58,508 nucleotides of DNA from Isosphaera sp. (GTDB lineage: Bacteria > Planctomycetota > Planctomycetia > Gemmatales > Gemmataceae), in assembly GCA_013822345.1 (NCBI GenBank), contig PNKH01000043.1, positions 1 through 58,508 of the forward strand, given 5' to 3'. The translations under genes and the position numbers were made by a program. This document shows, piece after piece, positions 49,997 through 54,302 of this stretch; the first letter of the stretch is position 1, and every line of letters begins with the position of its first letter. Under the pieces are notes generated by a model. It saw only the letters and a program-made list of their open reading frames with translations. It was not told where the DNA came from and searched no databases.

Positions 49997-50085
49997 GTAG
50001 GGTGTGTCGAGCGAGTCTTCGAGCGACGACGCACCGGGGGTCGCCGGTGCGTCGTCGGTCCGAAGCGGACCTCGACGCACCCTAC
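49997..50085. repeat. Palindrome N
   Basis: The arms begin GTAGGGTG and end CACCCTAC, with CCGGTGCGTCGTCG-type inner words. They are less perfect than most families. The right end contains the TAG stop of the membrane protein gene at 50082-51245. Confidence 0.85.
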
Positions 50086-51245
50086 GAAGGGTCCGCGGGT
50101 GGGGCGAGGAATCCGAGCGAGCACGGGGCGAGGACGGCCGGGGCGACCCACCAGTAACCTTCCAGCGGCCCGGGCGGGAGGGCGAGTGACACCGAGGTGA
50201 CACCGGCCTGGCCGGCGAGGAACGCGGCGAGCAGCCCGTGCCGCCCGGCGGCCGCGAGCCGGCCCGCGCACCACACCGCCGGGACGACCAGCACCGGGAG
50301 GTCGAACACCCACCCGCCGTAGGGCGTCGCGAGCACCGACACGACGACCACGACCGGGAGCGCCCGCCGCCAGTCCCACGCGGCGCCGACGCGGATCCGC
50401 CACGCGACGAGCACCAGGCACGCCACGGCGCACGGCGCGAACTGCACCGCGAACCGGTCCGGGGCTACGGCCGTCCGGAGCCAGTAACCCGGCACCGGCA
50501 GCGCCCACCCGCTCAGCGGCACCGCCCCGGCGCCCGGGTCGCGGACGGCGGCGACGAACTGCCCGACCACGTCCGGGTTCGCCGCGACGGCCAGGCCGAG
50601 TGACACCGCGATGACACCGACCCCGGCGGCGAGCGCCCGCCGGCCGCCGCGGGCGGCGGCGTCGGCGAGCAGGAGCACCCCGAACCCGGCGAGGAGGTGC
50701 GGCTTCAGGGCGGTGAGGGCGGCGCAAGTCCCGGCGGCGACCGGCTTGCCGCGGGAGCGGAAGTGCAAAAACCCGGCCACCCCGAGGGCGAGCAGCCCGG
50801 CGTTCTGCCCGTAGACGACGACCCACCACGTCCCGACCGCCGACAGCCCGACGAGTGCGGCGAGCCACCGCGGCCGGCCGCCCCCGTACTCGCGCCACAG
50901 CAGGTCGCAGGCCAGCACTACCGCGGCGAGCTGCACCCCGACCCACAGCAGGGCCGCCCACCGGGCCGGGAGCAGCCCGACCGGCATGTACACGGCCAGC
51001 GCCGGCGGCGGGTTCCACATCATCACCGCCGCGTCCCGGCTGGGGTCGGCGAGTTGCTGCTCGGCGAGCAGGCGGGCGGGGTCGTAGGGGTTGTCGCCGC
51101 GGAGGTTCACCCGCCCGGCCGCCCAGTACTCGGGGAAGTCCTTCGGCAGCCGGAACCCGGGCGCGGTCACCACCCGGTCGGCGGCGGACACCAAGGCCGC
51201 CAGGCCGAGCGCCACCACCGCGACGGACCGGACGGTTTGTGACAT
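50082..51245 (-). CDS. GT87-like (DUF2029) membrane glycosyltransferase
   Basis: This 387-residue polytopic membrane protein has about nine helices. The N-terminal extracytoplasmic region has the GT87-type pattern DFPEYWAAGRVNLRGDNPYD, and TALKPHLL occurs in the middle. GT87 enzymes are polyprenyl-phosphate-sugar dependent mannosyltransferase-like proteins. It is the third gene of an operon with 51253 and 53082 and is paralogous to the latter. The TAG stop lies in palindrome N. Confidence 0.85.
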   Translation of the reverse strand: MSQTVRSVAVVALGLAALVSAADRVVTAPGFRLPKDFPEYWAAGRVNLRGDNPYDPARLLAEQQLADPSRDAAVMMWNPPPALAVYMPVGLLPARWAALLWVGVQLAAVVLACDLLWREYGGGRPRWLAALVGLSAVGTWWVVVYGQNAGLLALGVAGFLHFRSRGKPVAAGTCAALTALKPHLLAGFGVLLLADAAARGGRRALAAGVGVIAVSLGLAVAANPDVVGQFVAAVRDPGAGAVPLSGWALPVPGYWLRTAVAPDRFAVQFAPCAVACLVLVAWRIRVGAAWDWRRALPVVVVVSVLATPYGGWVFDLPVLVVPAVWCAGRLAAAGRHGLLAAFLAGQAGVTSVSLALPPGPLEGYWWVAPAVLAPCSLGFLAPPADPS

Positions 51246-51252
51246 GGGGGTG

Positions 51253-53085
51253 TCACCGGCTCGGGGTGGCGCGGACCCGGGCGACCGCCTCGGGGTCGCC
51301 GGTGAGGTCGAAGACGTGGACGCAGTGGCCCGGGACGGCGACCGGCGGGCGGCCGCGGAGCCAAGCGTAGGTGTCGGGGTCGTTGAGGAACAGCCCGAGG
51401 AGGTGGTTCGTGCTGACCGCGACGACGTGCCGCCGGGCGTCCGCCGGGATGACTTCGCCGCCGGGCGGGCCGACCCGGCCGTACCCCGGGAGCGGCCGGA
51501 ACCGGATGCCGTGCGCCTCCGGCCGGTCGGTGCCGAAGTACCCGAGGTAGGCCGCCTCGACGCCGTTCGCGTCCATCCACCGCTTCAGCGCCGGCAGCCC
51601 TTGCCCCCAGTCGAGGTTCGAGTCGGCGAGGTGCCGCGCCCCGCCGGCCGGGCCGCCCGCGAGTTCGTTGAAGGAACTGATCTCGTAGGGGTTCGCCCGC
51701 TGGGCCGCGACCCCGCACAGGGCCAGGCACACGGCGGGTACCACCACCCGCACCGCCCGGCAGCACCCCGCGACCACCGACCCGGCCGCGAGCAGGTACA
51801 GGAACGGGAGCACCGGGGCGACCGCCCGCACCCCGACGTTCACCCGCGCCGCCGACGCCAGGGCGAAGAACGCCAGCGGCGGGACGACCAGCAGCACCCA
51901 CCGCGGGTCCGGCCGGCACCGGCCGCACGCCGCCGCGCGTGACACCGCACTGACCCCGGCGGCCAGAAGCAGGCCGAGCGGCAACTTCAGGCCGAGGGCG
52001 ACGAGGAAGTAGTGGTACCACCCGGCGCGGGAGGCTTCGCCGCTCAGGTACGCGACGCCGTCCCCGTGGCCGCCGCGGGTGAGCTGGAACTTCAGCCCGG
52101 CGGCCCACTCGGGGACGTGGACGAACCCGTAGGTGGCCGCGACGGTGACGGCCGCGACCGCCCCGAGGCGGACCGCGAAGTCGGCCGCGGCGCGGGGTCG
52201 GCCGCCGGACTTCGCCGCAGGTGGTTCCCCCTCACCCGCCGCTCCGCGGCGACCTCTCCCCAGCGGGGAGAGGTGGGGCTGGTGCGGCCCCTCCTCAGCC
52301 AACCGATCTGGTGCGCCACCGAGGCGGCCAGCCACCCCCACCTCTCCCCGCTGGGGAGAGGTCGCCGGCGCTTCGCCGGCGGGTGAGGGGCGCCACGTCC
52401 GACGGCCACCCGGCAGCGCCAACGTCCCGCCGCGCCCCACGAACACCGCGCCCGCCAGCCCCAGCCCCGCGACCAGGCCGACCGCGGAGAACTTCGCCCC
52501 GAGGGCCAGCCCGACCGTCACCCCGACCCCGGCCAGCAACCCCCGCGACGGGGCCGCCGCGTACTCCCACAGCAGGTGGCACGCCAGCAGCCCGAACAGC
52601 GACACCCCGACGTCCGTGGTCAAGACGCACGACAGGGCCAGCAGCGTCGGGTCGGCGGCCGCGAACCCGCACCCCGCCACCCCGGCGAGTTCCGTCCCCC
52701 ACACCCGGTACGCCACCCACCCGACGAGCCCCACCAGGGCGCACCCGAGGGCGAGGTTCACCCGCCGGGCCGGGTCGAGCAGCTGCCGCGGCGGCACCCC
52801 GGACCGGTACAGCCAGGCGTCCGCGACGTGCCAGTGGTTCGCGCCGGCCTCGGACGGGAGCGGCGGGGCGCCGCCGAGCACCGCCGGCAGGGCCCACACG
52901 AGCTTCAGGAGCGGCGGGTCCTCGCGGTTCAGCCGGAAGTCGCCGGCCGTCCAGTACCCGTACCCGGCGGCGAGGTGGACGCCCTCGTCGAACGTCGGCC
53001 CGTTCGCGGCGATGAACCGCTCCCCGCGCCACGCGAACCACCCGACCAGGGCGGCGCACGCCGCGACCGCGAGGGGGCGGGTCAT
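51253..53085 (-). CDS. GT39/GT-C-type membrane glycosyltransferase with in-frame palindrome B2
   Basis: This 610-residue polytopic membrane protein has the GT-C acidic motif near the N-terminus (NGPTFDEGVHLAAGYGYWTA) followed by DFRLNREDPPLLK, typical of PMT/ArnT-like enzymes using lipid-linked sugars. About residues 230-289 are encoded by palindrome B2 and read [12 protein letters not shown]...[16 protein letters not shown], Pro/Gly/Arg-rich and unrelated to the family. The insertion lies between membrane segments (…GLAGAVFVGR before, AVRLGAVAAVTVAATYGF after). The frame stays open on both sides, so the protein may be functional with an added loop. ATGA overlap with the upstream gene (53082). 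Confidence 0.87.
   Translation of the reverse strand: MTRPLAVAACAALVGWFAWRGERFIAANGPTFDEGVHLAAGYGYWTAGDFRLNREDPPLLKLVWALPAVLGGAPPLPSEAGANHWHVADAWLYRSGVPPRQLLDPARRVNLALGCALVGLVGWVAYRVWGTELAGVAGCGFAAADPTLLALSCVLTTDVGVSLFGLLACHLLWEYAAAPSRGLLAGVGVTVGLALGAKFSAVGLVAGLGLAGAVFVGRGGTLALPGGRRTWRPSPAGEAPATSPQRGEVGVAGRLGGAPDRLAEEGPHQPHLSPLGRGRRGAAGEGEPPAAKSGGRPRAAADFAVRLGAVAAVTVAATYGFVHVPEWAAGLKFQLTRGGHGDGVAYLSGEASRAGWYHYFLVALGLKLPLGLLLAAGVSAVSRAAACGRCRPDPRWVLLVVPPLAFFALASAARVNVGVRAVAPVLPFLYLLAAGSVVAGCCRAVRVVVPAVCLALCGVAAQRANPYEISSFNELAGGPAGGARHLADSNLDWGQGLPALKRWMDANGVEAAYLGYFGTDRPEAHGIRFRPLPGYGRVGPPGGEVIPADARRHVVAVSTNHLLGLFLNDPDTYAWLRGRPPVAVPGHCVHVFDLTGDPEAVARVRATPSR
52219..52396. repeat. Palindrome B2, inserted in a coding sequence
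   Basis: The 178-bp copy of family B has outer arms AGGTGGTTCCCCCTCACCC and GGGTGAGGGGCGCCAC, with inner CCTCTCCCC/GGGGAGAGG hairpins. It lies wholly within the glycosyltransferase gene at 51253-53085 and preserves its frame. Confidence 0.92.
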
Positions 53086-54302
53086 CGGGCCGGCTCCGGG
53101 CGGGGCTTGTCCGCGACCCACAGGGCGCACGCGCAGATCACCGGCCCGACCCAGGCGTAGTGGGCGGTGCCGGTGTACACCACCATCAGCACCGCCACCC
53201 CGAGGTTCGCCGCCGCGTACGCCCCGAGCAGCACCCACCGGCCCTGCACCGCCCACCCGCCGGCGTCCGCCCGGGCCGCCACCGCCACCACCGGTACCAG
53301 CAGCAGCGTGAGGTCCGACGGCCACGACCCGTACGGGGCCAGCAGCAGCCCGGCCGGCAGCACCCACAACATCGCCGCCGGCCACCGGTCCGGCCCGCCG
53401 CGCCGCCACCAGTACACCGCGAACCACGGGACCGCGACCGCCGCCGGGACGAACTGCACCCACATCGGCTGGCCCGGGGTGCAGTACCGCGCCCACGCCT
53501 GGACCGTCGGGTTGAACCACACGCTCAGCGACGGGTAGTACGGCGACCCCGGCCCGCCGACCGCCGCCAGGTACTCCCGCCACACGTCCGGGTTCGCCGC
53601 CGTCGCCGCCGCGGCCGCCGCCCCCAGCGCCGCCAGCCCGCCGAGCACCACCCGCCGGCCGAACGGCGACCGGAGGGCGTCGATCCCGAGCCCGACGGCG
53701 AACAGGAGGAACAGGTGCGGCTTCAGGGCGGTGAGGGCGGCGAACGCCCCGGCCAGGCCCGGCCGGCCGGCCCGGTGGGCGAGGAGGAACCCGACCACCC
53801 CGACCAGCAGCACCCCGCCGTACTGGCCGTAGTACGTCTGCCACCAGAGCGGCCCGAACCCGACCGCCAGAGCCGCCGGCACCCACCACCGCCCGGCCGC
53901 CCCGCCGGCCATCCGCCACACCAGCACCGCCCCGACCACGACCGCCGCGAACTGCCCGAACACCCACAAGGCTTGCGCTGCCCCGACGGACAGCGCCCCG
54001 ACCGGAATCGCCAGCGCCAGCCCCCACGGCGGCACCCACATCATCGACGCGTAGCTCGACGGGCTGCGGTTCGCCAGCTGCAGCCGGTACATCGCCTCCC
54101 CGTCGTACGGGTTCCCCCCGGACAGGGCCAGCCGGCCGGCCGACCAGACCTGGAGGAAGTCGTGCGGCCGCGGGACGGACGGGTCGTTCAGGTAGGTGTC
54201 GGCGACCCGGACGGCGAGGACCAGGACGGCCGCCGCGGCGACCGCGGACAGGGCCGGGCGGGCGAGGCCGCCGGCCGGCGGGGCGAGGGACGCGGACGAC
54301 AT
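53082..54302 (-). CDS. GT87-like (DUF2029) membrane glycosyltransferase
   Basis: This 406-residue polytopic membrane protein is paralogous to the gene at 50082, sharing PHDFLQVWSAGRLALSGGNPYD, MMWVPPWGLALAIPVG, YYGQYGGVLLVGVVGFLL and TALKPHLF. It starts the three-gene operon; its stop overlaps the next start in an ATGA, indicating translational coupling. The operon probably mannosylates or otherwise glycosylates an extracytoplasmic lipid or protein; this is inference from the families. Confidence 0.87.
   Translation of the reverse strand: MSSASLAPPAGGLARPALSAVAAAAVLVLAVRVADTYLNDPSVPRPHDFLQVWSAGRLALSGGNPYDGEAMYRLQLANRSPSSYASMMWVPPWGLALAIPVGALSVGAAQALWVFGQFAAVVVGAVLVWRMAGGAAGRWWVPAALAVGFGPLWWQTYYGQYGGVLLVGVVGFLLAHRAGRPGLAGAFAALTALKPHLFLLFAVGLGIDALRSPFGRRVVLGGLAALGAAAAAATAANPDVWREYLAAVGGPGSPYYPSLSVWFNPTVQAWARYCTPGQPMWVQFVPAAVAVPWFAVYWWRRGGPDRWPAAMLWVLPAGLLLAPYGSWPSDLTLLLVPVVAVAARADAGGWAVQGRWVLLGAYAAANLGVAVLMVVYTGTAHYAWVGPVICACALWVADKPRPEPAR

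Follow-up and report, generated by a model that had tools for sequence, protein, structure and literature searches.

The locus considered here raises the question of how a palindromic repeat comes to lie in frame within an intact gene for a membrane glycosyltransferase, and whether it belongs there. The window, that is, the whole 58,508-nt stretch of Isosphaera sp. DNA that was analysed, contains a GT39/PMT-like gene at 51253–53085 on the minus strand whose 610 codons read without a stop through the palindrome, termed B2, and which a codon-usage gene finder calls as one gene. Its overlap with the upstream neighbour is 4 nt, and 7 nt separate it from the downstream one. The insert-free orthologue L011 matches the PMT family (PF02366, 4.7e-7), unlike the insert-bearing protein, for which no Pfam match was found at E 0.001. 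In the AlphaFold2 model of the window protein (17 sequences, mean pLDDT 65), residues 228–293 form coil with pLDDT <50 between predicted helices 201–217 and 296–319, and the B2 insert is predicted to occupy a disordered loop between these helices. A preliminary description of the sequence had placed the palindrome in frame inside a GT39-like gene, in a loop between membrane segments, and both statements agree with the intact reading frame, the single gene call, the membership of B2 in a repeat family and the predicted coil. The genes on either side, at 50082–51245 and 53082–54302, also encode membrane proteins, with N-termini that look alike by eye, and we take them to be probably glycosyltransferases.

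A clear orthologue of the GT39-like gene is present in 16 of the 18 other genomes of the genus. In 14 of these 16, the loop from LALP to the RLG-type motif that follows measures 14 or 16 residues, against 79 residues in the window gene, which corresponds to a net gain of 63–65 residues. The region is likewise absent from an orthologue in another genus of the family (L026), and the unit is absent, as judged by eye, from seven other named orthologues (with Gemmataceae in the title of five and Fimbriiglobus in that of two) among the 20 of 43 additional loci that were inspected, 13 of the 20 being contigs already covered. Since 14 of the 16 same-genus orthologues lack the region, B2 is an insertion. 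The clean insertion of 55–60 residues anticipated in the preliminary description is therefore real but somewhat larger than proposed, and the condition it set for refutation, orthologues in which the region is native sequence, was looked for and did not arise. The two remaining same-genus orthologues carry loops of 28 residues (L010, from genome G015) and 34 residues (L016, from the sister species G003), with one repeat unit each in the same loop. The net gain of 189–195 nt falls short of the element's assigned 222 nt, and either the ends of B2 have been set too wide or some of the native loop has been lost.

Several readings of the insert other than an arrival in the window lineage have to be weighed against these data. 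That B2 is native coding sequence, palindromic by chance or through codon bias, could be argued from the GC content of 74%, which favours hairpins and open frames, but the reading is refuted by the orthologues without the region and sits badly with a family of hundreds of hairpins, leaving it a negligible probability. An assembly artefact is very improbable: the window genome is a draft of 226 contigs and repeats can misjoin contigs, but the frame, the gene order and the orthologous sequence are continuous on both sides of B2, and inserts of this kind occupy the loop in two other assemblies as well. More weight, if still little, attaches to a single ancestral insertion that was inherited and afterwards either disappeared from most lineages or was overwritten through concerted evolution. 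The units in L010 and L016 have the same orientation and are identical in their 3' halves, and in a tree of the orthologue proteins built with the loop removed their grouping is not rejected (p-AU 0.055). In the same tree, however, the window protein clusters with two insert-free orthologues (support 100/100), and a forced clade of the window protein with L010 (p-AU 1e-90) or with L016 (p-AU 3e-71) is rejected; moreover, the window copy is a 222-bp dimer of the type found in its own genome, whereas the L010 and L016 copies are ~53-bp units of other sequence types, and a single origin would need several clean losses. Parsimony requires 3 changes, a count that alone cannot separate gain from loss. 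Because the union of the window gene with either L010 or L016 is rejected, the loop was struck at least twice independently, a recurrence overlooked in the preliminary description, which had recognised the in-frame loop insertion as such. Three independent origins are not claimed, given that the grouping of L010 with L016 is not rejected; the number of hits in this loop is at least two and perhaps three. The branch of the window protein (0.25) is no longer than those of its sisters (0.26 and 0.16 beyond a shared 0.15), and there is no sign of decay.

B2 is larger than at first described. The stretch 52219–52396, which the preliminary description had delimited as the palindrome, is its strongly palindromic core, and sequence common to other copies extends to ~52194 and ~52415, giving a whole element of 222 bp (52194–52415). 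This extent was read from flank conservation over 52 dimers, the fold and the orthologue gap, the ends themselves being fixed by conservation alone and hence approximate. The left unit comprises a tail block at 52228–52237 (minus strand; CCCCTCACCC on the plus and GGGTGAGGGG on the minus strand), a variable spacer hairpin at 52238–52252 (minus strand) and a core hairpin, CCTCTCCCC-AGC-GGGGAGAGG, at 52253–52273. A central core (52274–52340) separates it from the inverted right unit, in which the core hairpin, CCTCTCCCC-GCT-GGGGAGAGG, at 52341–52361 is followed on the plus strand by the variable spacer hairpin at 52362–52380 and the tail block GGGTGAGGGG at 52381–52390. The inner arms (52247–52293 and 52321–52367) are 87% complementary over 47 nt and the outer arms 100% over 14 nt; in the outermost flanks, within-copy complementarity does not exceed column expectation. 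As DNA, 52194–52415 folds at -96.5 kcal/mol compared with -60.5 +/- 3.9 for 200 dinucleotide shuffles, none of which reaches the value (z -9.35), and the RNA fold gives a z of -11.6. Four of the six frames are open through B2, compared with means of 3.1 for 52 sampled dimers and 2.6 for mononucleotide shuffles of B2, and the open frame is unremarkable because of the GC content. No target duplication was seen at B2 by eye, the ends of the element being fuzzy and the orthologues having diverged too far to provide an empty site exact to the base. The sister copy B1 (1639–1845, ends approximate, tails 1648–1835) is intergenic, as had been reported.

The repeat family recognised in the preliminary description is confirmed, but it had gone unnoticed that the element combines two boxC/TM_ECO-like units. 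Each unit consists of a 21-nt core hairpin (CCTCTCCCC-n-GGGGAGAGG), a second or spacer hairpin that is variable and ~12–35 nt long, and the tail GGGTGAGGGG, and two inverted copies of one unit make up the element. The window genome (7.47 Mb; a draft assembly, as are most of the genomes compared) contains 211 exact hairpins of the pattern ACCTCTCCCCN2-8GGGGAGAGGT, compared with 0 for the reversed-pattern control. A sample of 60 stretches plus the window, built from the copies with the highest scores and from hairpins at the head of the contig-ordered list, contains 56 hairpin pairs and 12 singles, with a start-to-start spacing of exactly 88 nt in 33 of the 56 pairs. The spacer varies widely in sequence (48 distinct versions among 120 units of the window genome) and yet remains paired: 98% of its positions pair between own halves versus 81% when halves are swapped between copies, with corresponding values of 91% versus 68% in G015 and 70% versus 60% in G003. 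Dimers of the window genome mostly have their tails outward, with a few tails-inward pairs (L046, L051, L054), and those of G013 have them inward; since orientation differs within and between genomes, the elements are mosaics. The pattern GGGAGAGG-N5-35-GGGTGAGGGG occurs in 17 of the 19 genomes of the genus, at up to 299 places, with two control matches over all 19. Of 102 genomes of the order, 52 contain the three blocks in a relaxed form, for which the control gave no match, and of 294 genomes sampled from the phylum, 35 contain the core hairpin taken by itself. A search of Rfam with the element gave only sub-threshold microRNA look-alikes and one sub-threshold sRNA, and no report of the family in Planctomycetes was found among the open-licence PMC papers listed. 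Single longer-armed hairpins near GGTCTTCA-CCTCTCCCC...GGGGAGAGG-TGAAGACC (L049 2421–2444, L057 2465–2485) seem to form a sub-class of their own within the family, and a 3.9-Mb genome of the same phylum (G122) contains 332 exact CCTCTCCCC hairpins, some at a regular spacing of ~174 nt.

Within the window genome, B2 is the exception among its relatives. The home-made gene finder, based on codon usage and trained on the same stretches, called 87% of the sample coding. The 52 dimers lie between co-directional genes (29), in convergent (15) or divergent gaps (6), at a stretch edge (1) or, in the case of B2, inside a gene; accordingly, none of the other 51 sampled dimers, counting the one at the stretch edge, falls inside a predicted gene, and 113 of the 115 exact core hairpins of the sample are outside genes, the other two being those of B2. 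The difference between convergent and divergent gaps (15 vs 6, p 0.078) is not claimed as an excess. The earlier proposal that such palindromes can enter genes thus holds for B2 and finds no second case in the sampled part of the window genome. A different distribution is seen in G003, where all 33 exact listed units were placed: 12 in predicted genes, 15 between co-directional genes, 1 each in a convergent and a divergent gap, and 4 at edges, so that 17–21 of the 33 are outside predicted genes. Eight of the 12 genic units have domain or orthologue support on both sides, their hosts being the linker of a PfaA-like polyketide synthase, a MutS-like protein (two units), the ligase domain of Pnkp, TruD, QueA, a squalene-hopene cyclase and the GT39 orthologue; for the other four, support is one-sided or absent. 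The MutS_III match of the MutS-like gene (L156 941–2830), which bears its two in-frame units at codons ~182 and ~403, is below the Pfam cut-off. Compared with solved relatives, QueA has 18 added residues, Pnkp 16 and TruD a net 36, the last being more than one unit; the phmmer alignments obtained with the cyclase and with the MutS-like protein do not reach across the insert. In G015, 20 of 93 units were placed, with 3 in predicted genes (two of them forming one dimer) and 8 at edges, a weak sample on which no conclusion here relies.

The unit finds its closest structural counterpart in the boxC/PIT/TM_ECO repeats, a triplex-capable family reported from 262 proteobacterial genomes, with which, in the portion of the account available, it shares a C-rich arm, a G-rich arm and a second G-rich block in the same order, the block fitting GGGNGAGGG, as well as the occurrence of inverted pairs (PMC4666352). 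The dispersed copies are described as intergenic in E. coli, and as far as that portion of the account extends it reports no translated copies (PMC4666352). The two differ in the spacer, which is 3 nt there and a variable hairpin of ~12–35 nt here, and the strict published TM_ECO pattern with its 3-nt second spacer occurs in 0 of the 19 genomes of the genus. G330, which belongs to the same family but another genus, has short 3-nt spacers of the TM_ECO type and is a bridge between the TM_ECO pattern and the hairpin-spacer unit. From these sequence patterns we infer common descent and read the genus unit as a boxC-like repeat whose spacer became a hairpin. The reversed tail, GGGGAGTGGG against GGGGAGAGGT, could form an intrastrand triplex, the purine tail folding back on the first hairpin.

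With REP/BIME/REPIN elements the family has in common, according to the part of the source consulted, singles alongside inverted dimers, mosaic orientations and intergenic positions often near gene ends (PMC3733652), and the short palindromes with many inverted dimers, mainly extragenic, that mark REP/REPIN sequences were found here. It differs from them in that the unit has two consecutive hairpins and that no cognate RAYT flanked by the repeat was found among 35 Y1-transposase loci in six genomes of the genus; inspection of the unit ends by eye showed no GTAG or CGTC tag. Some REPs of the GTAG and CGTC families encode amino acids within ORFs, and in recB of two Xanthomonas species a REP lies at about the same site, in the excerpt at hand (PMC3733652). 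MITEs, too, are described in a partly available source as short, high in copy number and bounded by inverted repeats (PMC10969869), but no parental transposase was found here and no target duplication was seen, and the ends are fuzzy. According to the same partial source, Rickettsia palindromic elements are ~150-bp sequences that encode a conserved peptide and lie in frame in unrelated genes (PMC10969869). Entry into unrelated genes in frame is seen here as well, in one gene of the window and 12 of 33 units of G003, and so is a preferred frame in 8 of the 12 genic G003 units, a small sample; the parallel with Rickettsia drawn in the preliminary description is therefore sound as regards behaviour, and more strongly so in G003 than in the window genome. 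The differences are that the host belongs to another phylum, that the sampled window-genome dimer is extragenic except for B2, and that the elements are known here from sequence alone. The Rickettsia elements are not known to be related in sequence to the unit described here. The family behaves as REP/BIME dimers do outside genes and as the Rickettsia elements do inside them.

Taken together with the orthologue comparison, this makes it probable that B2, a dimeric copy, comes from a dispersed family of non-autonomous palindromic elements and was inserted in the window lineage, where it kept the frame by chance. The best reading of elements of this type is that of mobile, REP/BIME-like non-autonomous palindromes that survive in genes mainly when in frame in permissive loops. 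What gets copied may be the single-stranded hairpin form, by a transposase acting in trans or through replication or repair errors; purifying selection would then purge most genic copies and spare those in frame in permissive loops, the extra peptide presumably being an inert Pro/Gly/Arg-rich linker that leaves the enzyme working. A broader proposal, put forward tentatively and with the odds somewhat against it, is that Planctomycetes have an independent counterpart of the Rickettsia elements, a hairpin-remodelled, triplex-capable unit of boxC type that repeatedly enters conserved genes (those for tRNA modification and DNA/RNA repair, and for lipid and sugar enzymes), with a preference for one frame and with a recurrent loop as a site. 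If this is true, a repeat described as intergenic would be a source of new protein segments. In-frame palindromes have already been described in Rickettsia and in several GTAG/CGTC REP families, in the parts of the two sources available (PMC10969869, PMC3733652); the present case adds the same outcome with a boxC-like unit and the repeated hits in one protein loop, which make it testable how boxC/TM_ECO repeats spread and how mobile DNA yields new protein segments.

Two further explanations concern what keeps the units in genes and what copies them. If the peptide itself were selected, as in the Rickettsia elements, the unit would stay translatable, its Pro/Ser/Gly/Glu-rich product being a useful or harmless linker and the family adapted to genes. 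Eight of the 12 genic G003 units share one orientation and phase and start like PSPxxGEGG, although the unit has five of its six frames open (binomial 5.8e-4, or ~2.9e-3 when corrected for five frames). Of the remaining four, two are read in another sense phase and two in antisense, each of the latter in a phase of its own; L010 lies outside these 12, as its diverged unit misses the strict pattern. Selection against bad frames, however, accounts equally well for this bias, the 12 units are not all independent (two lie in one gene), and in 2 of the 8 same-frame units the translation changes partway through to a different ending. Since, in addition, the sampled window-genome dimer is extragenic apart from B2, and the two units of B2 are read in different frames, only one of which is of the PSP type, selection for the peptide appears unlikely, if well short of fanciful. 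As to copying, none of 35 Y1-transposase loci (from 36 matches to PF01797 in six genomes of the genus) has a unit within up to 1.5 kb, and one shows a loose hairpin match; as some of the loci are shortened by contig ends and about one or two chance neighbours would be expected from the density of units, this points to no association rather than to avoidance, and a RAYT as mobiliser of the unit is unsupported. When longer stretches are considered, two Y1 genes have one core hairpin each in their surroundings, at 2.4 kb in L099 and at 8 kb in L100. The lack of an associated Y1 transposase is consistent with copying by template switching or repair at hairpins or triplexes without any transposase, as is the persistence of complementary internal hairpins while their sequence turns over, which foldback correction would give, and TM_ECO loci are reported to be unstable in the accessible part of the account (PMC4666352). 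On the other side, more than 100 dimers' worth of units, commonly at a fixed 88-nt spacing, look like the copying of a defined element, and as the search covered PF01797 only, a diverged or lost transposase from some other family is just as plausible; we regard transposase-free copying as a serious possibility, though less likely than not. Apart from the unit discussed here, three Y1 genes of the window genome (L098, L100, L102) adjoin palindromes of their own and are probably REP/RAYT pairs of other families; in L100, copies of GGCAGGCAGGAATGCCTGCC surround the gene, and in L102 each end of the gene has another palindrome.
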